A stretch of DNA of 64,000 bases. Origin: Sulfitobacter pontiacus (GTDB lineage: Bacteria; Pseudomonadota; Alphaproteobacteria; Rhodobacterales; Rhodobacteraceae). A program made the position numbers and the translations under genes. The notes under the pieces are model-generated. The model was not told where the DNA came from. It was given only the letters and a program-made list of their open reading frames with translations, and did no database searches. The stretch covers positions 2,443,501 to 2,507,500 of the forward strand of contig NZ_CP160849.1 in NCBI RefSeq assembly GCF_040790665.1, read 5' to 3'. This document shows, in pieces, positions 3,768 through 14,040 of the stretch. Position 1 is the first letter of the stretch. The number at the start of each line of letters is the position of its first letter.

Positions 3768-4523
3768 TCAGATTGCCAGATATTCGGCACGCAGTTCGGC
3801 GTTGTTCAGCACCTCTTCGGCGGTGCCGTCAAACACCACGCCGCCGGTATCAAGGATCACCGCACGATCCGCGAGTTTAAGCGCACGCACCGCGTTTTGT
3901 TCGACCAGAATGGTGGTGATGCCTTGGGATTTGATCAGCGACAGGGTCTTTTCGATCTCGTCCACGATGACGGGGGCAAGCCCCTCATAGGGTTCGTCCA
4001 GCAGCAGCACCTTGATGTCACGGGCCAGCGCACGGGCAATCGCCAGCATCTGTTGCTCGCCGCCCGACAGGGTCACGCCCTCTTGCTTGCGGCGTTCCTT
4101 GAGGCGGGGGAACAACTCGTAGATGCGGTCAAGCGACCAGCCGATGGGCGGGGCGATCTGCGCCAGTTGCAGGTTTTCCTCGACCGTGAGACCCGCGATG
4201 ATGCGGCGGTCTTCGGGGACCAGCGCCAGACCGTTTGCGGCGGCCTCGTGGCTGGCCATCTTGTGCAGCGGCTGGTGGTCCAGCCAGACCTCGCCTTTGC
4301 GCAACTCGGGGTCGCCGATCTGGGCGATGGCCCGCAGGGTAGAGGTTTTCCCCGCCCCGTTGCGGCCCAGAAGTGCCAGAATTTCGCCTTCGTGCACGTT
4401 AAAGCTGACGCCCTGCACGATGTAGCTTTCGCCGTAATAGGCGTGGATGTCCCAGACCGAAAGATAGGCGGGGGCGGTAGCGGCGTGGTTGGCGCTGTTC
4501 GAGAAATCGGGTTTCGTGTTCAT
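3768..4523 (-). CDS. ABC transporter ATP-binding protein, LivF type
   Basis: 251 residues, one of the two ATPases of the importer encoded at 3.8-9.1 kb. Walker A is GRNGAGKT (residues 53-60), the signature is LSGGEQQMLAIARAL and Walker B is VLLLDEPYEGLAP; the glutamate after the aspartate is present, so it should be active. Compared with classic LivF it has about 20 extra residues at the N-terminus. The last gene of the operon (binding protein, LivH, LivM, LivG, LivF), 60 nt after livG. Substrate cannot be read from the ATPase; see the binding protein. Confidence 0.93.
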   Translation of the reverse strand: MNTKPDFSNSANHAATAPAYLSVWDIHAYYGESYIVQGVSFNVHEGEILALLGRNGAGKTSTLRAIAQIGDPELRKGEVWLDHQPLHKMASHEAAANGLALVPEDRRIIAGLTVEENLQLAQIAPPIGWSLDRIYELFPRLKERRKQEGVTLSGGEQQMLAIARALARDIKVLLLDEPYEGLAPVIVDEIEKTLSLIKSQGITTILVEQNAVRALKLADRAVILDTGGVVFDGTAEEVLNNAELRAEYLAI

Positions 4524-4583
4524 GTTCTTGTCCTTGCAAAGCCGTGGAAGCGGGGCGACGCGGGAGGGGGGAGCCCCCGCGCG

Positions 4584-5348
4584 TCAGGCGGCGTCCTGGG
4601 ATTCGCCCAAATACGCCTCGCGCACCTTGGGGTGGCCTTTGATGTTGTCGGGGGTGTCTTCGACCAGCGGGGTGCCTTGCGCCAACACGGTGATCCGTTC
4701 CGCCAGCGAGAACACCACATGCATGTCGTGTTCGATGATGGCGATGGTGATGTCGCGTTCGTCCTTGATCTGCTTCAGCAGGTCGATGGTATTGTTGGTA
4801 TCGGCCCGCGCCATGCCCGCTGTGGGTTCATCCAGCAGCAGCAGGCGCGGATCTTGCGACAGGCACATCGCGATTTCCAACCGACGTTTGTCGCCGCGCG
4901 ACATAGAGGCCGCGTGCATATGTCGCTTGTCGGCGAGCTTCATCTCGACAAGCATCTCCTCGGCTTTTTCGATCACGTCACGTTGGCGCGACATGGCCGT
5001 GAGCGCGTTCATCTGGAACGCCCCGTCACGTTTGGCAAAGCAGGGGATCATCATGTTCTCCTGTACGCTGAGATCACCAAAGATCTCGGGCGTCTGGAAA
5101 ACGCGGGAAATCCCCATCTGGTTGATCTCGTAGGGTTTGCGCCCCAGCACCGACTGCCCGTCGAACATGACCGATCCGGTATCGGGGATCAGCTTGCCCA
5201 CCAGACAGTTCAGCAGCGTGGATTTGCCCGCCCCGTTCGGCCCGATGATCGCATGGACCGAGTTTTCCGCGACGCTGAGGTTCACGTCGCTCAGCGCTTG
5301 CAACCCGCCGAAACGTTTGCCGACATTTTTGACTTCGAGAATGGCCAT
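4584..5348 (-). CDS. ABC transporter ATP-binding protein, LivG type
   Basis: 254 residues, second ATPase of the importer. Walker A is GPNGAGKS (residues 36-43), the Q-loop lies in FQTPEIF near residue 85, and Walker B is RLLLLDEPTAG. The ABC signature is odd: at residues 150-156 it reads SRGDKRR where LivG proteins usually have a Y/S-G-x-Q-R-R form. The following LEIA and all other motifs are normal, so it is probably functional with a variant signature rather than degenerate. 15 nt separate it from livM. Together with LivF it should form a heterodimer under the LivH-LivM channel. Confidence 0.92.
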   Translation of the reverse strand: MAILEVKNVGKRFGGLQALSDVNLSVAENSVHAIIGPNGAGKSTLLNCLVGKLIPDTGSVMFDGQSVLGRKPYEINQMGISRVFQTPEIFGDLSVQENMMIPCFAKRDGAFQMNALTAMSRQRDVIEKAEEMLVEMKLADKRHMHAASMSRGDKRRLEIAMCLSQDPRLLLLDEPTAGMARADTNNTIDLLKQIKDERDITIAIIEHDMHVVFSLAERITVLAQGTPLVEDTPDNIKGHPKVREAYLGESQDAA

Positions 5349-5363
5349 CTGTTCAGCTCCTTC

Positions 5364-6572
5364 TTATTCGGCTGGGGGTGTGTTGCGTTGTGCGGCGGCG
5401 TCTGCCTCGACCGATCCGGCGTTCCGGTCCTTGCGGCGGAACACGCGACCGATACGTTGACCGCCTTCGACCAGACCACCGGGCAGGAAGATCACGACCA
5501 GCATGAACAGCAGGCCCAGCGTCAGGTGCCAGCCCTTGCCCACAAAGGGGTGGATCAACATGATCAGCGTGTCTTCCAGCCCGTCCGGCATAAAGGCGAA
5601 CCAACCGTGCAGCACGTTATCGTTGATCTTGGAAAAGATGTTTTCAAAGTACTTGATAAAGCCCGCGCCCAGAACCGGCCCCAGTAGGGTGCCCGCACCC
5701 CCAAGGATGGTCATCAGCACCACCTCGCCCGAGGCGGTCCACTGCATCCGTTCGGCACCGGCAAGCGGGTCCATTGCGGCCAGCAGGCCACCGGCCAGAC
5801 CGGCATACATGCCAGAGATGACAAAGGCCGCCAGCGTGTAGGGTTTGGTATTCAGGCCCGTGTAGTTCATCCGTTGCTGGTTCGATTTCACCGCCCGCAG
5901 CATCATGCCGAAAGGCGACCGGAAGACGCGGATCGAGATATAGAACGCCAGCAGCATGATCACGGCACACAGGTAATACCCGACCGAGAAGGTGAAGGAC
6001 CACGCCCCGAAATCCAGCGTCGTCGCCGCATTCATCTGCGCCCCGAACAGATTGGGGTAGCTGGGTGCATTCGCCCCATCAAGGATACGCGGATCGCTCA
6101 GCGCGATTTGCAGGCCGGTTTCCCCGTTGGTGATCGGCGTCAGCACCGAATAGGCAAGGTTGAACGACATCTGCGCAAAGGCCAGCGTCAGGATCGAAAA
6201 GTAGATCCCCGACCGGCGTAGCGAGACAAAGCCGATCACGACAGAGAACAGCCCCGCCACGATCACGGACAAAAGGATCGCGGGGATCACGTTCATCGAC
6301 AAGAGCTTCATCATCCACACGGCAGAGTAGGAACCGACCCCCAGAAAGGCCGCGTGACCAAAGGAGAGGTATCCGGTCAACCCGAACAGAATGTTGAACC
6401 CGATGGCAAAGATGCCAAAGATCACAAAGCGCTGCATCAAGTCGGGGTAGCCCGCGTTGAACTGCGCCAGCCCTGATCCGGCGGGGAAGGGGTTGAGGAT
6501 GATAGGGGCTGCCATGGTCAGGAATGCCACCACCAACAGCAGGAGAAAGTCTTTTTTCGTGAGTGAGTGCAT
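5364..6572 (-). CDS. ABC transporter permease, LivM type
   Basis: 402 residues, longer than typical LivM (~330-360). About ten hydrophobic segments; the [24 protein letters not shown] motif near residue 65 and the [24 protein letters not shown] cytoplasmic-loop motif (ATPase docking) are clear. An insertion around residues 150-190 lengthens a loop between two membrane segments, and a hydrophilic tail of ~25 residues (rich in R, D, E, A) follows the last helix. It starts three bases after the livH stop and is surely co-translated. The enlarged loops are shared with the LivH of this operon, which suggests a distinct subfamily rather than the standard leucine importer. Confidence 0.93.
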
Positions 6573-6575
6573 GGG

Positions 6576-7607
6576 TTATTCCTCCATCACGCCTTTGCGG
6601 CCCATCAGGCCACGGGGGCGTGTCAGCAAGATGAGTATCGCGACAACGTAAATGATGATCTGGTCAATGCCGGGCAGGATGTTCTTGACCTCGTTCATGG
6701 AGGCAAAGCTTTCCAGAATGCCCAGCAAGAACCCCGCCAGCACGGCACCGGGCAGCGACCCCATGCCGCCGACCACGACGACCACAAAGCTCAGGACCAG
6801 AAAATCCATACCCATGTGGTAGTTGGGCGAATTGATCGGCGCGTACATGACACCGGCCAGACCGGCGACCGCGGCGGCGATGCCGAACATGATGGTGAAA
6901 CGTTTGTCGATGTTGATGCCCAGCAGACCGACGGTCTCGCGGTCGGCCATACCGGCGCGCACAACCATCCCGAAGGTGGTGAACTGCAAGAAGGCAAAAA
7001 CGCCGCCGATGATCACGGCCGAGAAGGCGAAATAGATCAGACGCCAGTAGGGGTAGATGATCGCATTGGGATCAAAGCCCAGCATCACGCCAAAGTCGAA
7101 CGACCCGCGAAACGCCTCCGGGGCGGAGGTGGGGATCGGGTTCGCGCCGTAGAAATACTTGATCACCTCTTGCAGCACGATCGCCAGACCGAAGGTCACG
7201 AGGATCTGGTCGGCATGGGGGCGCTTGTAGAAATGTTTGATCAACCCGCGCTCCATGACAAAGCCGATGGCCAGCATGATCGGCACGGCAAAGAGGATCG
7301 ACAGGGGAACGGACCAATCCAGCATCCAAGCACCGGCGGTCTCTCCGAACCAGTCCTTGATATAGAGAATGTCCTCGTATTTCGGCTTGCCCAGAAAATC
7401 GACGCCGGAGGGTTCCGATGCCTTATGGCTGAGCGTGAAAATCTTGCTTAGCGTGACGGCGCAGAAGGCACCGATCATGAACAGCGCCCCATGGGCAAAG
7501 TTCACGACACCCAGCGTGCCGAAAATCAACGTCAGACCAAGCGCGATGAGCGCATAGGCTGAACCTTTGTCCAACCCGTTAAGAAGTTGCAAAAGAATGG
7601 CGTCCAT
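6576..7607 (-). CDS. ABC transporter permease, LivH type
   Basis: 343 residues against ~290-310 for ordinary LivH. The N-terminal LNGLDKGSAYALIALGLTLIFGTLGVVNFAHGALFMIGAF is the classic LivH signature, and VVVGGMGSLPGAVLAGFLLGILES near residue 270 is the ATPase-docking loop. The extra length sits between residues ~55 and 100 (an amphipathic insert containing YIKDWFGETAGAW), probably a periplasmic or membrane-edge element. Eighty-eight bases separate it from the binding-protein gene, a normal gap where the more abundant binding protein is made from the first cistron. Confidence 0.93.
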   Translation of the reverse strand: MDAILLQLLNGLDKGSAYALIALGLTLIFGTLGVVNFAHGALFMIGAFCAVTLSKIFTLSHKASEPSGVDFLGKPKYEDILYIKDWFGETAGAWMLDWSVPLSILFAVPIMLAIGFVMERGLIKHFYKRPHADQILVTFGLAIVLQEVIKYFYGANPIPTSAPEAFRGSFDFGVMLGFDPNAIIYPYWRLIYFAFSAVIIGGVFAFLQFTTFGMVVRAGMADRETVGLLGINIDKRFTIMFGIAAAVAGLAGVMYAPINSPNYHMGMDFLVLSFVVVVVGGMGSLPGAVLAGFLLGILESFASMNEVKNILPGIDQIIIYVVAILILLTRPRGLMGRKGVMEE

Positions 7608-7695
7608 CGCGGTGCCCTCGAATTTTTAAGAAGTGAAAGGCGGAAAAGCCCGCCGGCAAGGTAAGGCAGGGGTCGCCCCCTGCCTTAGACTTGAT

Positions 7696-9060
7696 TTACG
7701 CGCCGGGGTTGCAGTCGCCCAACTCGCCGCCCGCAAACATCGGGTGGTCAGGTGCATAGGTGACCTGATCGGCTGGGGTGACTTCGACGATTTCCACGAG
7801 ATCGAATTCATTCTCGGGGTTCTCTTTGCCGCGCACGACCACAACGTCCTTAAAGCACTGGTGGTCATCGGCGCGGTACAGCGTCGGGCCGTTGCCCAGA
7901 CCGTCGAACTCGAACCCGGCAAGGGCTTCGCCGACGGCGCAGGGGTTGAACGAACCGGCACGGGCCACCGCATCCGCGTACAGCAGCGTCTGCGCATAGC
8001 AGGTCTGAGCCGCCTGGCTGGGGGGGAAGCCGTATTTTTCGCCAAAGGACTGAACGAAAGCGTTGGTGCCTTTGTAGCGGTCGCCCATCTGGTTCTCGAG
8101 CTTCCAGTCCCAGTTCTGCGAGCCGACGATACCGGTGATATTCTCACCTGCACCACGGGCCATCAGCTCTGAATAGAGCGGCACGACGATCTCGAAGTTC
8201 TTACCGTTCACCTGCTTTTCGCGCAGGCCGAACTGCACGGCGTTGGTCAGCGAGTTGACCATGTTTCCGCCGTAGTGGTTGAGCACCAGAACATCCGCAC
8301 CGGAGTTCAGGACAGGGGCGATATAGGACGAGAAATCGGTCGCGGCGAGCGGCGTGCGCACGTCGTTGATGGTTTCCCAACCCATGGCTTCGGTCGCGGC
8401 CTGAATGGATTCCTGCTGCGTCCAGCCCCATGTGTAGTCGGCTGTCAGGCTATAGACCTTGCGGTCGTCGCCATAGAGATTCTTCAGCACCGGAGCGAGC
8501 GCCGCAGCGGACATGTAAGCGTTAAAGAAGTGGCGGAAGCCGTTGGCTTTCTTGTCTTTACCCGTGGTGTCGTTCGAATGGGTCAGACCCGCCATAAAGA
8601 TCACGCCGGCCTCTTGGCACAGGCCCTGCACCGCAACCGCCACGCCCGAGCTTGAGCCGCCCGAGATCATGATCGCGCCGTCTTTCTGGATCATCGACTG
8701 CGCCGATGCGCGGGCCGCGTCCGATTTGGTCTGCGTGTCGCCGGTCACGAACTGGACTTTCTTGCCCATGATCCCGTTACCTTCCAGCGCCTTCGAGCTG
8801 AAGGTGTTCAGCATACCGCCGTCGCCCTGACCGTTCAGGTGCTCGACCGCCAGCTCGAACGCGCGCAGCTCGTCTGCGCCTTCGTCCGCGTAGGGGCCCG
8901 ATTGGGGTACGTTAAAGCCAAGCGTCACCGTGTCGCCCGTTGGCGCGTTGGTAAAGCCGGAATGCGCGGCCGCGCTAAGATACGTCGGCAGCGCCAGACC
9001 GGCCCCGGCAGCAGCGCCGGTTTTGATCACGCCACGACGCGTCAAGTTAGAAAATGACAT
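7696..9060 (-). CDS. ABC transporter substrate-binding protein, Tat-exported, HAAT type
   Basis: 454 residues from the ATG at 9060, which has GGAGGA just upstream; an in-frame start 23 codons earlier gives no signal peptide and is rejected. The N-terminus has a twin-arginine motif (LTRRGVIK) before a hydrophobic stretch, so it is exported folded by Tat. The mature part is a periplasmic binding protein of the Leu/Ile/Val-amide-urea type: TVTLGFNVPQSGPYADEG at the start, SGGSSSGVAVAVQ near residue 125 and an AQTCYAQTLLYADAV hinge region late. Two cysteines near the end may pair. First gene of the importer operon and divergent from the regulator at 9292. UrtA (urea) is an alternative, but the family marks do not settle the ligand. 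Confidence 0.9.
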   Translation of the reverse strand: MSFSNLTRRGVIKTGAAAGAGLALPTYLSAAAHSGFTNAPTGDTVTLGFNVPQSGPYADEGADELRAFELAVEHLNGQGDGGMLNTFSSKALEGNGIMGKKVQFVTGDTQTKSDAARASAQSMIQKDGAIMISGGSSSGVAVAVQGLCQEAGVIFMAGLTHSNDTTGKDKKANGFRHFFNAYMSAAALAPVLKNLYGDDRKVYSLTADYTWGWTQQESIQAATEAMGWETINDVRTPLAATDFSSYIAPVLNSGADVLVLNHYGGNMVNSLTNAVQFGLREKQVNGKNFEIVVPLYSELMARGAGENITGIVGSQNWDWKLENQMGDRYKGTNAFVQSFGEKYGFPPSQAAQTCYAQTLLYADAVARAGSFNPCAVGEALAGFEFDGLGNGPTLYRADDHQCFKDVVVVRGKENPENEFDLVEIVEVTPADQVTYAPDHPMFAGGELGDCNPGA

Positions 9061-9268
9061 GTATTTCCTCCCAAATGTTGAAATCACGGCCCGATTATTT
9101 TTCCGGGTCCATGATGCACAGAGGTGCAAATATGATATGAGGGGAAAACTGAAAACCGATCAACAAGCCCCTTGATAAAAACAACTATTCTGTAAATATA
9201 TTCGCACAGATTGAGGGGGAGTTGTAAATTTAATGATATTGCAGCGCAGAAAGCCGTTGATAACGCGA

Positions 9269-9291: not shown

Positions 9292-10587
9292 GTGACCCGC
9301 GATGCGCTGACCGGCAGCCGTATCCGTGAACGTCGGGTGATGGCGGGGCAGAAACAGGCGGACCTTGCCAAGCGGATCGGCATCTCGGCCAGCTATCTGA
9401 ATCTTATTGAACACAACCGTCGCAGAATCGGCGGGAAACTGCTTCTTAACATCGCCGCCGCCCTTGGGGTGGAGCCGACGGCGTTGACCGAAGGGGCCGA
9501 GGCGGCGCTGATCGCTACCCTGCGCGAGGCGGCGGATGATGCGCGGCTCAGCGGGCCGGAGGCGACCCGCGCCGATGAATTTGCCGGGCGGTTCCCGGGC
9601 TGGGCCGATGTGCTGGCCAACGCGCAGCGCCGGATCGCCACGTTAGAGCGTACGGTCGAAACCCTGACCGACCGGCTGGCCCATGACCCGCATCTGGCGG
9701 CCTCTATGCACGAACTGCTGACGACCGCTGCCGCGATCCGGTCCACCGCGTCGATTTTGGCCGATACCAAAACGCTTGAACCCGAATGGCGCGACCGGTT
9801 TCACATCAACATCGATCAGGACAGCCGTCGCCTTGCCGATAGCGCGCAGGCGCTTGTGGGCTATCTTGAGGCCGACCCCGAAATCACCCCCGCCGCCGAT
9901 TCCCCGCAAGAGGAGGTAGAGGCGTTTCTGGCCGCGCATCGCTATCGTTTTGCCACGCTCGAGGTCACCGAAGGGGATGCGGATGCTATCGACAAGCTGA
10001 TCCAGACCGCCCCCGAGTTGCAAAGCGTGGCCGCGCGTCACATCGCGCGCGATGTGTTGCAGCAGATCGCCATCGATGCCGAAGCCCTGCCGATCACGCG
10101 GCTGACACAGGCTCTTGACCGGCTTGGACCCGACCCCGTGGCGCTTGGTGCAGAGCTGCGCCAGCCCGTGGCCCGCGTCTTGCGGCGCATGGCAACGGTG
10201 CCGGAACTGGGGGCAGGGCTGGTGATCTGCGACCGGTCGGGCACGTTGATCTTTCGCAAATCCATCGACGGTTTCGTCGTGCCGCGCTTTGGGGCCTGTT
10301 GCCCGCTTTGGCCGCTGTTTGCCGTTCTGGGCAGCCCGGGCATGGTGCAGAAACAACGGGTCGCGCAATTGGGGCGGGGCCATTCTGCCTTTGACTGTTT
10401 TGCCACCTGCGAAACCCAAAATGTGCGCGATTACAACGCGGTACCCTTGCTTCATTCGGTGATGTTGATCCTGCCTGCGGGGCCGGACAGCGCGCCCGCG
10501 CTTGATGTGGGGGCCACCTGTCGCGTCTGCCCGCGTGCGCAATGTCCGGCGCGGCGCGAACCGTCGATCCTGAATGACGGGGTATAG
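9292..10587 (+). CDS. ScfR/PccR-like XRE regulator with an embedded DHp-like histidine segment
   Basis: 431 residues, GTG start. Residues ~8-62 are an XRE helix-turn-helix (QADLAKRIGISASYLNLIEHNRR). The C-terminal half has marks of the short-chain fatty acyl-CoA regulator family (RamB, ScfR, PccR): an FGACCPLWPLF segment near residue 333 and the end motif CRVCPRAQCPARR. That family normally has an ImmA/IrrE-like centre; no HExxH is visible here. Instead residues ~134-195 align without gaps to the HisKA helix of the kinase encoded downstream, with H140-E-L-L-T144 matching its H683-E-L-R-T687, and IRS and IL conserved. No ATPase domain follows. First of four co-directional genes ending with that kinase; 107 nt separate it from the receiver. 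Inference: a DNA-binding protein that docks to, or exchanges phosphate with, the receiver. Domain calls are by eye. Confidence 0.82.
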   Translation: MTRDALTGSRIRERRVMAGQKQADLAKRIGISASYLNLIEHNRRRIGGKLLLNIAAALGVEPTALTEGAEAALIATLREAADDARLSGPEATRADEFAGRFPGWADVLANAQRRIATLERTVETLTDRLAHDPHLAASMHELLTTAAAIRSTASILADTKTLEPEWRDRFHINIDQDSRRLADSAQALVGYLEADPEITPAADSPQEEVEAFLAAHRYRFATLEVTEGDADAIDKLIQTAPELQSVAARHIARDVLQQIAIDAEALPITRLTQALDRLGPDPVALGAELRQPVARVLRRMATVPELGAGLVICDRSGTLIFRKSIDGFVVPRFGACCPLWPLFAVLGSPGMVQKQRVAQLGRGHSAFDCFATCETQNVRDYNAVPLLHSVMLILPAGPDSAPALDVGATCRVCPRAQCPARREPSILNDGV

Positions 10588-10694: not shown

Positions 10695-11078
10695 ATGGGC
10701 AAGCATGTGGTGCTCGTGGAAGACGAGACGAACATCGCCGAGGCGATACGATTTTTACTCGGCCGTGAGGGCTGGCGCGTCGAAACGCTGGCCAATGGCG
10801 CGACAGCCGTGGAGGTGATCCGCAAGGCCAGCCCCGATCTGGTGATGCTGGATGTGATGCTGCCGGGCAAAAGTGGTTTCGAAATCCTGAAAGAACTGCG
10901 AGCGGATGCGGCGCTGGCCGATCTGCCGATCCTGATGCTGACCGCCCGCGGCCAGACCCGCGACCGCGAAATCGCGCTAGAGGCCGGGGTCAGCCGGTTT
11001 ATGACCAAACCGTTTTCCAACGCCGATATGCTGGCAGCCGTGCGCGATCTGACCGCCGCAGGCACCGCAAAAGCATGA
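10695..11078 (+). CDS. Stand-alone response regulator receiver
   Basis: 127 residues from the ATG at 10695 (GGGAGGGA upstream); a longer in-frame reading has no coding character. A single CheY-like receiver with all key residues: acidic pair in VVLVEDE (E9/D10), phospho-acceptor D53 in LVMLDVMLPGKSGFE, T83 in ILMLTARG and K105 in FMTKPFS. There is no output domain. It overlaps the next gene by ATGA and is followed by the symporter-kinase, so it is the likely partner of that kinase. Without an output domain it must act by protein contact, and the DHp-like segment of the regulator encoded just upstream is an attractive target. Confidence 0.93.
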   Translation: MGKHVVLVEDETNIAEAIRFLLGREGWRVETLANGATAVEVIRKASPDLVMLDVMLPGKSGFEILKELRADAALADLPILMLTARGQTRDREIALEAGVSRFMTKPFSNADMLAAVRDLTAAGTAKA

Positions 11079-11347
11079 GCAAGCCCCCCGGCTCGCCGCT
11101 GTTTCTGGAACGGCGCAGCTACCGGTTTCGCCGCATGATGGATGCCGTCCGGCTGCTGCCCTTGCTGGTGCTGGCCTTCTGGATGGTGCCGCTGCTCTGG
11201 CCTGTGCAGGATGCCCCCGTCGGCGCGGCCGTGCCCATGTCGCACGCGCTGCGCTATGTCTTTGGCGTCTGGCTGGCGGGCATCGTCTTGTGCTTTCTGC
11301 TCTGGCGGCGCACGGCGCGGCAGATTGCTCAGGAAGCTCAAGACTGA
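11075..11347 (+). CDS. Small two-helix membrane protein, possible symporter small subunit
   Basis: 90 residues: a basic N-terminus (ERRSYRFRRMMDAVR), a first membrane segment at about 28-45, a short loop, a second segment at about 58-77, then a basic end (WRRTARQIAQ). It overlaps the receiver (ATGA at 11075) and the kinase (TGATG at 11345-11349), so the three are translated together. The layout, two helices with charged ends directly before a sodium:solute symporter module, is that of the DUF485/YjcH and DUF4212 small subunits encoded before acetate-type symporters. The sequence match is only at the level of layout, so this is an inference; it may help assemble or tune the sensor. Confidence 0.6.
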   Translation: MSKPPGSPLFLERRSYRFRRMMDAVRLLPLLVLAFWMVPLLWPVQDAPVGAAVPMSHALRYVFGVWLAGIVLCFLLWRRTARQIAQEAQD

Positions 11348-14040
11348 TGGTGTCGCTGAACCAGTTGGTTGCGGTCTGTCTGCTTTATGTGGTCGGGCTC
11401 TTTGCCGTGGCCTTCGCGGCAGAGCGTGCGGCGGCACGGGGGCGGGGCGACTGGCTGTTGCGCTCTCCGCTGGTCTATACGCTGTCGCTGTCGATCTATT
11501 GCACCGCGTGGACGTTTTACGGTGCCGTAGGCTATGCCGCGCGGTCGGGGTTGGAGTTCGTGACGATCTACCTTGGCCCGTCGCTGGTGATGATCGGCTG
11601 GTGGTGGGTGCTGCGGCGGTTGGTGCGCATCGGGCGGTCGCATCGGGTGACCTCTGTCGCGGATCTGATTTCTTCGCGCTACGGCAAATCGAACCTGCTG
11701 GCGATCTTGGTCACCATCATGGCGGTGATCGGGGTGACGCCCTATATCGCGCTGCAACTTCAATCGGTTACCCTGTCTCTGTCGATCTTTGCCAGCGCCG
11801 AGCCGGGGGTGACGCCGGGCAGCGACCCGCTGAATTCCGCACAGGCGGCCTTTTGGGTCGCGGTGGGGCTGGCGCTATTCACCGTGCTCTTCGGCACCCG
11901 CAATCTCAACGTGAATGAACGCCACCACGGCGTGGTCATCGCCATCGCTGTCGAGGCGGTGGTCAAGCTGCTGGCCCTCCTGGCCGTCGGCGTTTTCGTG
12001 GTCTGGGGGCTGGCGGGCGGCGTCGATCAGGCGCTGGCGCAGATCGACCGGTCGGCCCTTGGTCAATGGCAGGTCGAGGGCGGCCGTTGGGCCGCGCTGA
12101 CGCTGCTGGCCGCTGCCGCCTTCATCTGCCTGCCGCGGATGTTTCAGGTGCTGGTGGTGGAGAATGACGACGAACGTCACCTGCAAACCGCCAGCTGGGC
12201 CTTCCCGCTGTATCTCATGCTGATGAGCCTGTTTGTCGTGCCGATTGCCGTGGTCGGGCTGGACCTGCTGCCCGAAGGGTCGAATCCCGATCTGTTCGTG
12301 CTGAGCCTGCCGCTCAGCCAAGGGCAAAACAGCCTTGCGATGTTTGCCTTTCTGGGGGGCTTTTCCTCGGCCACGTCGATGGTGATCGTGGCGACGCTGG
12401 CGCTGTCGACGATGGTGAGCAACCATATCGTCATGCCGATCTGGCTCACCTACGGGCAGAACTCGGTGCAGCAATCGGGTGATGTGCGTCATGTGGTGAT
12501 CCTGTCGCGGCGGCTGTCGATCCTGCTGATCATCTCGCTGGGGTATTTCTATTACCGTCTGTCGGGCGGCGGCGGTGCGTTGGCGGCGATCGGGACGATC
12601 TCTTTCGGGGGGGTCGCGCAGTTCCTGCCGGTGTTGCTGGGCGGTATCTTCTGGCGCGGGGCCACGCGCACGGGGGCCGTCTGCGGGCTAAGCGTGGGCT
12701 TTGCGATCTGGGTCTATACGATGCTCTTGCCCAGCTTTGGCGCAGGCGCGGCGCTATCGGTTGCGACCTTTCAGGACGGGCTGTTCGGCATGACCTGGCT
12801 GCGCCCCGAAGCCTTGTTTGGAATCAACGGTTTGGACCCCACTGTTCACGCAGTGATCTGGAGCCTTTCGCTCAACGCGCTGGTCTTTGTCGCCGTGTCC
12901 CTGTTCAGCTTTCCCGCCCCTGTCGAGCGGCTGCAAGGCGCGCAATTTGTCAATATCTTCGACCATTCCACCGCCGCCCGCGGGTGGAGCGCGTCCGTCG
13001 CGGCCAGCGAGGATCTGATGATCATGGCGCAGCGGATTTTGGGCCCCGCCGAGGCGCAGGGATTTTTCCGCGCGCAAGCCCAGTTGCAGGAAAAATCGGA
13101 TGGTTTGCCAGAGCCCACGCCGCGTTTTGTCCAGGCGCTGGAGCGTGAATTGGCGGCCTCGGTCGGGGCGGCGACGGCCCATGCGATGGTGTCGCAGCTG
13201 GTTGGCGGTGCCTCTGTCTCGGTGCAGGATCTGCTGGCGGTGGCGGACGAATCGGCGCAGATGCTGGAGTATTCAAGCCAGCTTGAAATCAAATCGCGCG
13301 AGCTGACCGATACCGCCGCGAAGCTGCGCCGCGCCAATGACAAGCTGACGCAACTGTCGCATCAGAAAGACAGTTTTCTGAGCCAGATCAGCCATGAACT
13401 GCGCACGCCCATGACCTCTATCCGGTCGTTCTCCGAGATTCTGCGCGACGCCCAGGGGCTGGGGCCCGAGGAAAAGACGCGCTATGCCTCGATCATCCAC
13501 TCCGAAACCATCCGGCTGACGCGGTTGCTGGACGATCTGCTGGACCTGTCTGTGCTGGAAAACGGCGAGGTATCGTTGAACCGTCAGCGCGGGTCGCTGC
13601 GCGATGTGCTGGATCAGGCCGTGACCACAGCGCGCGCCGCCAATACCCGCGCGATTACCATCGACCGCGATCTGCCAGGGGAGGAGGTGATGTTGGAGAC
13701 GGATCTGGACCGACTGGTGCAGGTTTTCATCAACCTTATCACAAATGCGCAGAAGTATTGCGTTGCCGACGACCCTCAGCTGTCGATCCGCGCCCACCAG
13801 CAGGGGCCTCGCATCATTGTGGACCTGATCGACAATGGCGCGGGGATCGATGCTGCGTCTCAGGAATTGATTTTCGAAAAGTTTAGTCGTTTGCCCGGGC
13901 AGGGCGGCGAGGGGGCCGGTCTGGGACTGGCGATATGCCGCGAGATTATCAAACGTTTGCAGGGGGATATCTCGTATCTTACCGAAGTGTCGGGCACCGG
14001 TTTTCGGGTTGAACTGCCGTTGGCGCAGAACGGGGCCTAG
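11347..14040 (+). CDS. Sensor histidine kinase with N-terminal sodium:solute symporter domain
   Basis: 897 residues; the ATG at 11347 overlaps the previous stop. Residues ~1-530 are a sodium:solute symporter (SSSF) module with ~13 membrane segments, including YSLSIYCTAWTFYGAVGYAARSG near residue 46 and RNLNVNERHHGVV. Then come a soluble region, a coiled coil (residues ~640-675), a HisKA helix with phospho-acceptor H683 in SHELRTPM, and a HATPase with N-box NLITNAQKY, G1 DNGAGI and G2 GEGAGLGLAI. The architecture is like CrbS/PutP-type sensors, where transport is read by the kinase; CrbS controls acetate use in Vibrio and Pseudomonas. No receiver is fused; the lone receiver at 10695 supplies it. 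The ligand is unknown. Confidence 0.93.
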   Translation: MVSLNQLVAVCLLYVVGLFAVAFAAERAAARGRGDWLLRSPLVYTLSLSIYCTAWTFYGAVGYAARSGLEFVTIYLGPSLVMIGWWWVLRRLVRIGRSHRVTSVADLISSRYGKSNLLAILVTIMAVIGVTPYIALQLQSVTLSLSIFASAEPGVTPGSDPLNSAQAAFWVAVGLALFTVLFGTRNLNVNERHHGVVIAIAVEAVVKLLALLAVGVFVVWGLAGGVDQALAQIDRSALGQWQVEGGRWAALTLLAAAAFICLPRMFQVLVVENDDERHLQTASWAFPLYLMLMSLFVVPIAVVGLDLLPEGSNPDLFVLSLPLSQGQNSLAMFAFLGGFSSATSMVIVATLALSTMVSNHIVMPIWLTYGQNSVQQSGDVRHVVILSRRLSILLIISLGYFYYRLSGGGGALAAIGTISFGGVAQFLPVLLGGIFWRGATRTGAVCGLSVGFAIWVYTMLLPSFGAGAALSVATFQDGLFGMTWLRPEALFGINGLDPTVHAVIWSLSLNALVFVAVSLFSFPAPVERLQGAQFVNIFDHSTAARGWSASVAASEDLMIMAQRILGPAEAQGFFRAQAQLQEKSDGLPEPTPRFVQALERELAASVGAATAHAMVSQLVGGASVSVQDLLAVADESAQMLEYSSQLEIKSRELTDTAAKLRRANDKLTQLSHQKDSFLSQISHELRTPMTSIRSFSEILRDAQGLGPEEKTRYASIIHSETIRLTRLLDDLLDLSVLENGEVSLNRQRGSLRDVLDQAVTTARAANTRAITIDRDLPGEEVMLETDLDRLVQVFINLITNAQKYCVADDPQLSIRAHQQGPRIIVDLIDNGAGIDAASQELIFEKFSRLPGQGGEGAGLGLAICREIIKRLQGDISYLTEVSGTGFRVELPLAQNGA

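Follow-up and report, generated by a model that had tools for sequence, protein, structure and literature searches.

In a 64,000-nucleotide stretch of the Sulfitobacter pontiacus genome (NCBI RefSeq assembly GCF_040790665.1, contig NZ_CP160849.1, positions 2,443,501 to 2,507,500 of the forward strand; hereafter the window, to which all coordinates refer), a regulator of the ScfR family carries a module resembling the dimerisation and histidine phosphotransfer (DHp) domain of a sensor histidine kinase encoded just downstream. Between the genes for regulator and kinase lies one for a lone receiver (Table 1). On balance, we think it probable that the regulator, with its inserted partner-kinase-like DHp, is the detached DNA-binding output of this receiver. 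The homology of the module, the conservation of its histidine, the association of the genes, the preservation of catalytic residues in receiver and kinase, and a conserved direct repeat in the divergent intergenic region were all computed here. If the reading is correct, the lone receiver would act through a separately encoded transcription factor, which holds a relative of the docking module of the kinase. Two-component signalling would then be joined in one system with ScfR regulators that sense acyl-CoA, two schemes usually treated apart, and a partner-shared domain would have been used in a clear case of pathway rewiring. The preliminary description of this gene, made from the sequence by itself, had proposed an unusual mix of DNA-binding and DHp modules that might accept phosphate from the receiver or be docked by it, and as a whole this interpretation is supported in part.

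Judged by its XRE domain, its ScfR C-terminal domain and the cysteines of a cluster site, the regulator is a member of the ScfR family. Both domains were found above their cut-offs (PF01381 at the N-terminus with 40.9 bits against 23, PF09856 with 45.2 bits against a gathering cut-off of 24), in agreement with the earlier assignment as ScfR/PccR-like. The RamB equivalog model NF038139 is not reached (106.9 bits against a curated cut-off of 700). Conservation was counted over 260 loci, the window's included; these and the locus and upstream-region counts given below cover many close relatives and are thus not independent. C337 is kept at 258 of the 260 loci, the exceptions being one histidine and one gap, and C410, C413 and C418 are each kept at 256, with four gaps each; by analogy with PrpR, the four residues are putative ligands of a [4Fe-4S] cluster. 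PrpR is itself an ScfR protein and, according to passages of PMC6765138, binds both acyl-CoA and such a cluster. The lack of an HExxH motif in the regulator, remarked on in the preliminary description, is correct but no peculiarity, as PrpR is without those residues too (same passages of PMC6765138).

The preliminary description had placed the DHp-like helix in the position of the usual sensor centre. That arrangement was rejected: the module has been inserted after the XRE domain and ahead of the PrpR-like half. A structure model of the whole regulator (mean predicted local distance difference test score, pLDDT, 90.1) has a long helix at residues 102-131, followed by the two further helices listed in Table 1. 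The same genome encodes a second ScfR-like protein (L002/L003, G000:C1, about 2195982-2200298), which matches the regulator at residues 7-109 and 242-425; within the aligned stretch it has no match to the DHp-like segment.

On sequence comparison, residues 110 to 196 or thereabouts share homology with the neighbouring kinase's DHp (HisKA) module. When regulator and kinase were compared by BLASTP, as a single comparison, residues 116-181 aligned with 658-724 (38% identity, E=4e-6). The alignment is gapless from D132 to L181 and sets H140-E-L-L-T144 on H683-E-L-R-T687, so that the ungapped match and the pairing of the two motifs described earlier are both borne out. Searched against the whole genome, the single regulator sequence finds the same kinase at E=0.0155 only, which leaves doubt. 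A family profile, A1, was made for residues 110-200 from 64 rows, i.e. 68 representatives minus L169 and L186 (histidine missing at 140), the paralogue L002, and L083 (an X in its sequence). Since rows without histidine at 140 had been dropped, the invariant positions of A1 were not used for H140. A second set, A2, additionally leaves out L019 and five fragments; all of its 58 rows match PF09856 (E<=0.1). Apart from the regulator itself, the top match of A1 in the genome is the DHp of the neighbouring kinase (48.7 bits, E=2.1e-12), and the next two are HisKA kinases at E=0.03 (15.9 bits) and E=0.13. Against PDB, its top matches (E=0.012) are DHps of histidine kinases, named as HK853, with H140 aligned on the histidine of their H-E-L-R-T motif. 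A Foldseek search with the hairpin alone gave kinases in 16 of the first 18 rows, counting the kinase-like LvrB, at weak E-values. When relatives were scanned one by one, 32 of 64 matched Pfam HisKA (PF00512; best E=6.5e-7); the window protein, scanned in full, has no match to this model at E<=1, and its 91-residue stretch matches no Pfam family at E<=10. The relationship to HisKA families thus comes out in the A1 profile and in these relatives, not in the window protein taken alone. A chance resemblance was rejected on the strength of the E-value of the family profile and its recurrence in all 25 of the kinase-bearing genomes considered next.

The likeness is to one kinase in particular. HisKA matches at E<=0.01 number 27 in the S. 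pontiacus genome, and a rerun on these 27 loci gave 44.5 bits for the neighbouring kinase versus 13.4 for the next. Among 30 other alphaproteobacterial genomes, the DHp of the corresponding SLC5-type kinase is the best match outside the regulators in 25 of the 25 that hold this kinase (43.8-55.6 bits), including 7 that gave no regulator match at E<=1e-15. In the 5 genomes lacking the kinase, the best match reaches 18.8 bits or, in 2 of them, there is nothing at E<=0.1. A reverse profile built from the DHps of the neighbour kinases finds the regulator with 24.7 bits (E=2.4e-7 in the 27-locus set). In a DHp tree of 77 rows and 94 columns, with long branches and a bootstrap that had not settled, a branch supported at 66/96 sets the regulator and kinase DHps together apart from the rest. 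The likeness to a single kinase points to an origin of the module in this kinase lineage with subsequent divergence, or to a shared binding partner.

Position 140 is histidine at 257 of the 260 loci, tyrosine at two and glutamine at one. Position 144 is S at 201, T at 49 and N at 3 loci (S/T/N at 253), with D at 5 and G at 2, and position 141 is looser, with E at 195, D at 23 (E/D at 218) and other residues at 42. In a first alignment, 25 of the 28 long distant relatives have histidine at position 140. A kept histidine with S/T/N at +4 and a relaxed acid at +1 would fit phosphotransfer or phosphatase activity better than that of an autokinase. No HATPase_c domain was matched in the regulator at E<=1.

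Regulator matches were obtained in 176 of 199 genomes of the window's family (E<=1e-30) and in 189 of 195 genomes of its order (E<=1e-15), all listed members belonging to that same family. A sample of the class yielded 41 genomes with a regulator match among 289 (E<=1e-15), of which 39 also hold the full-length kinase (E<=1e-200), which is present in 46 of the 289 overall; the remaining two (G358 and G586) are weak full-length matches. Most of the genomes sampled from the window's family carry the gene set, which also occurs in several further families of Alphaproteobacteria. Receiver and SLC5-type kinase follow the regulator at 240 of the 260 loci; of the 20 exceptions, 4 are truncated by contig ends. 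All 16 searched genomes with displaced or missing neighbours, among them G447, which lies outside the 260 loci, hold the full-length kinase, in some cases only a few kilobases off; each of the 8 displaced kinases that were fetched is directly preceded by a single-domain receiver. Conservation of H140 and of the neighbouring kinase, for which a survey of homologues had been suggested, is thus borne out. In the two genomes with Q140 (G534 and G447) the kinase lies on another contig. The two loci with Y140 (L217 and L300) keep receiver and kinase adjacent, so that histidine and partners are not simply lost together. Three genomes (G542, G459 and G612) have the SLC5-type kinase without a regulator match at E<=1e-15, and in each a small protein ending in a DHp-like hairpin with the motif H-E-L-x-T-P is encoded away from the kinase (L425:2550-2783, L427:2415-2678 and L426:2292-2765; 77, 87 and 157 residues, the start of the last being uncertain). 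These are possibly stand-alone partners of a lone receiver.

Receiver and kinase both keep their catalytic residues. The receiver keeps E9, D10, D53 and K105 at 240 of 240 loci and T83 at 237, and in 241 of 241 cases it is 121-149 residues long, with no output domain. Single-domain receivers are often without a known output. The kinase keeps H683, E684 and T687 at 235 of 240 loci, the other 5 being gaps. Its residues 3-571 match PDB 10ed_A, listed as a histidine kinase (E=2.8e-75) and probably the SLC5-type CbrA transceptor of PMC13022988; Pfam SSF has no match in the kinase at E<=1. Receiver-contact positions were taken from the PDB titles of a rewired HK853-RR468 complex (HK853 residues 268, 271, 275, 294 and 297). 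They were compared with 25 of the 26 other HisKA kinases of the genome, one falling below the score filter, and residues were counted at 239 of the 240 paired loci. In most rows, S/A at H+11 is combined with I at H+15 in the regulator as well as in the kinase, a combination found in 0 of the 25 other kinases. At the 14 loci with long regulators, the contact columns are mostly S-S-I-I-D/N/E in the kinases and mostly A-S-I-I-S/E/D in the regulators. Mutual information and mean-field direct coupling analysis were applied to regulator and receiver, and the positive control, kinase with receiver, also gave no recognisable interface; the pair of A147 and receiver L21, ranked second by both methods, is not leaned on.

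A TGTAAA direct repeat with a spacing of exactly 32 bp is present in 122 of 250 upstream regions, the next most frequent spacings having 10 each. For TTGTAAA with one mismatch, the 32-bp spacing is found in 150 of 250 regions versus 28 for the next spacing, and in 0 of 250 in one simple shuffle. The repeat in the window is the only exact copy in the genome. This distribution suggests a local target of the regulator, i.e. a candidate operator. The PrpR/RamB-type box TTTGCAAA was found in only 2 of 77 upstream regions.

Table 1. Features of the regulator locus, in window coordinates
Feature	Position	Strand	Evidence
ABC (ATP-binding cassette) transporter substrate-binding protein, UrtA-like, divergent from the regulator	7696..9129	-	Database matches
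Candidate operator between the divergent genes: TGTAAA-N26-TGTAAA direct repeat with a period of 32 bp	9191..9228	+	
XRE - DHp-like - PrpR-like/ScfR regulator	9292..10587	+	Open reading frame (ORF), GTG start, 431 aa
XRE helix-turn-helix, residues 11-64	9322..9483	+	PF01381 E=2.2e-10
DHp-like module with leading helix, residues 110-196	9619..9879	+	BLASTP, profile searches, predicted helices 102-131, 133-158, 164-193
H140-E-L-L-T144, counterpart of the HisKA phospho-histidine motif	9709..9723	+	Alignment, conservation
ScfR C-terminal domain, residues 310-426	10219..10569	+	PF09856 E=1.1e-11
Single-domain receiver, 127 aa, with E9/D10, D53, T83, K105	10695..11078	+	PF00072 E=1.1e-26 on a longer ORF from 10605
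Sensor histidine kinase of SLC5 type (CbrA-like) with H683 in its DHp and without a C-terminal receiver	11347..14040	+	HisKA, HATPase_c

The receiver has no DNA-binding part, whereas a DHp is present in the neighbouring ScfR protein. Read most simply, the receiver would act on DNA by way of the regulator's DHp. The kinase would phosphorylate the lone receiver, which might then dock on the regulator's DHp hairpin as it would on that of the kinase and either leave its phosphoryl group on H140 or act by docking alone. The resulting change could reach the XRE domains by way of the adjoining helix and tune binding at the candidate repeat, which would alter how strongly the divergent ABC transporter and the regulator's own operon are expressed. 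A metabolite signal read by the acyl-CoA/Fe-S-type C-terminal half would join the receiver input. A DHp copy in the regulator may in this way let a messenger protein without a DNA-binding part control genes. A more elaborate combination, possible but doubtful as a whole, would have a His-Asp-His relay ending on H140, phospho-histidine and not phospho-aspartate setting DNA binding, two-component and acyl-CoA/Fe-S sensing meeting in one protein, and a DHp copied from the system's own kinase.

Several observations weigh against the regulator as output of the receiver. In the reverse profile, 12 other kinases of the genome rank above it, so that the homology is two-way but the special likeness one-way. 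The tree does not fix the origin of the module, a grouping of the kinases alone not being rejected (approximately unbiased test, p-AU 0.625). In some genomes the regulator is encoded far from receiver and kinase. At the contact positions the window's regulator has A-S-I-N-Q and its kinase S-S-I-I-S. In the short regulators, that of the window among them (225 loci), residue 173 is N against I in the kinase, and the contact patch is for this reason similar, not identical; H+11 is A in 71% of kinases and S in 92% of regulators. Most of the 28 long distant relatives have lost E141. D132, I155, F170 and L181 are invariant (260 of 260), more so than H140, so that conservation alone is no proof of phospho-acceptance. 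With one mismatch allowed, the genome holds 4 copies of the repeat (3 more) versus 6 in a reversed control; as such copies are no commoner than in the control, the repeat draws its support solely from position and conservation.

The module might be nothing more than a dimerisation hairpin, whose histidine is kept for structural reasons and never meets a receiver. We regard this as unlikely, since it accounts neither for the resemblance to a single kinase in 25 of 25 genomes nor for the association of the genes, and position H+4 stays S/T/N at 253 of 260 loci. The kept histidine, the S/T/N at +4 and the relaxed acid, given the residue roles set out above, would also fit a phosphatase or phosphate sink, by which the regulator in one ligand state drains the phosphorylated receiver and feeds the metabolic state back, the receiver acting elsewhere. 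However, no other output of the receiver turned up, albeit without a systematic search for one, and the residue at +4 is S at 201 of 260 loci, whereas T or N is usual at this position in kinases; a sink of this kind seems distinctly unlikely. Contact of the module with the kinase itself, by a DHp-DHp heterodimer or by trans-phosphorylation from the catalytic and ATP-binding (CA) domain, would leave the regulator held at the membrane or directly phosphorylated. It would agree with a module profile closest to the DHp of that very kinase and with the co-occurrence of kinase and regulator, but it leaves the accompanying receiver, which has no output, unexplained, and we consider it decidedly improbable.

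The arrangement differs from related systems described before. PccR, RamB and MccR/PrpR are ScfR regulators, and unlike these the protein described here has a DHp-type hairpin between XRE domain and sensor half. An SLC5-type kinase is common to this locus and to the SLC5/STAC systems CrbS/CrbR, RpuS/RpuR and CbrA/CbrB. The histidine phosphotransferases ChpT and Spo0B are likewise kinase-like dimers that swap phosphate with a receiver and are themselves no kinases. Both hand phosphate to a DNA-binding response regulator, whereas here the DHp sits inside the DNA-binding protein, with no HATPase found. Two SLC5/STAC systems of S. fredii have, according to parts of PMC9100948, hybrid kinases with a C-terminal REC domain and response regulators of the LuxR type; here, in contrast, there is a REC-less kinase, a lone receiver and an ScfR protein. 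A LuxR-type DNA-binding response regulator is absent next to the kinase, the neighbouring receiver being 127 residues long and without an output domain. In Caulobacter, the kinase-type DHp of the pseudokinase DivL reads the phosphorylated response regulator DivK without phosphotransfer, as related in passages of PMC4211667, and so offers a precedent for action by docking alone. DivL thus resembles the present case as a kinase-type DHp used to read a receiver, also in Alphaproteobacteria, and the Y140 loci recall its Tyr550 (same passages of PMC4211667). It differs in that it keeps CA and PAS domains, is without the histidine and does not bind DNA. Pden_1785 of Paracoccus denitrificans is named in PMC10370305 as a protein of the ScfR network beside a two-component system. 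Among the open PMC papers returned by literature searches, none reports a DHp within an ScfR protein in its title or abstract opening.

Divergently from the regulator, UrtABCDE-like genes for an ABC transporter of the branched-chain/urea type continue from the substrate-binding protein to about 3768 (window 3768-9129). The substrate-binding protein scores 54.5 bits with the UrtA model, far under its cut-off of 492.75. A relative of it stands divergently beside the regulator at 76 of 119 fetched loci, Ruegeria loci being among those without. In a scan of genome contigs, the best named matches are Sulfitobacter and Roseobacter. Elsewhere in the window, between 28001 and 40000, GC skew is about 0.2 and GC content 0.64-0.65, above the other 4-kb blocks.
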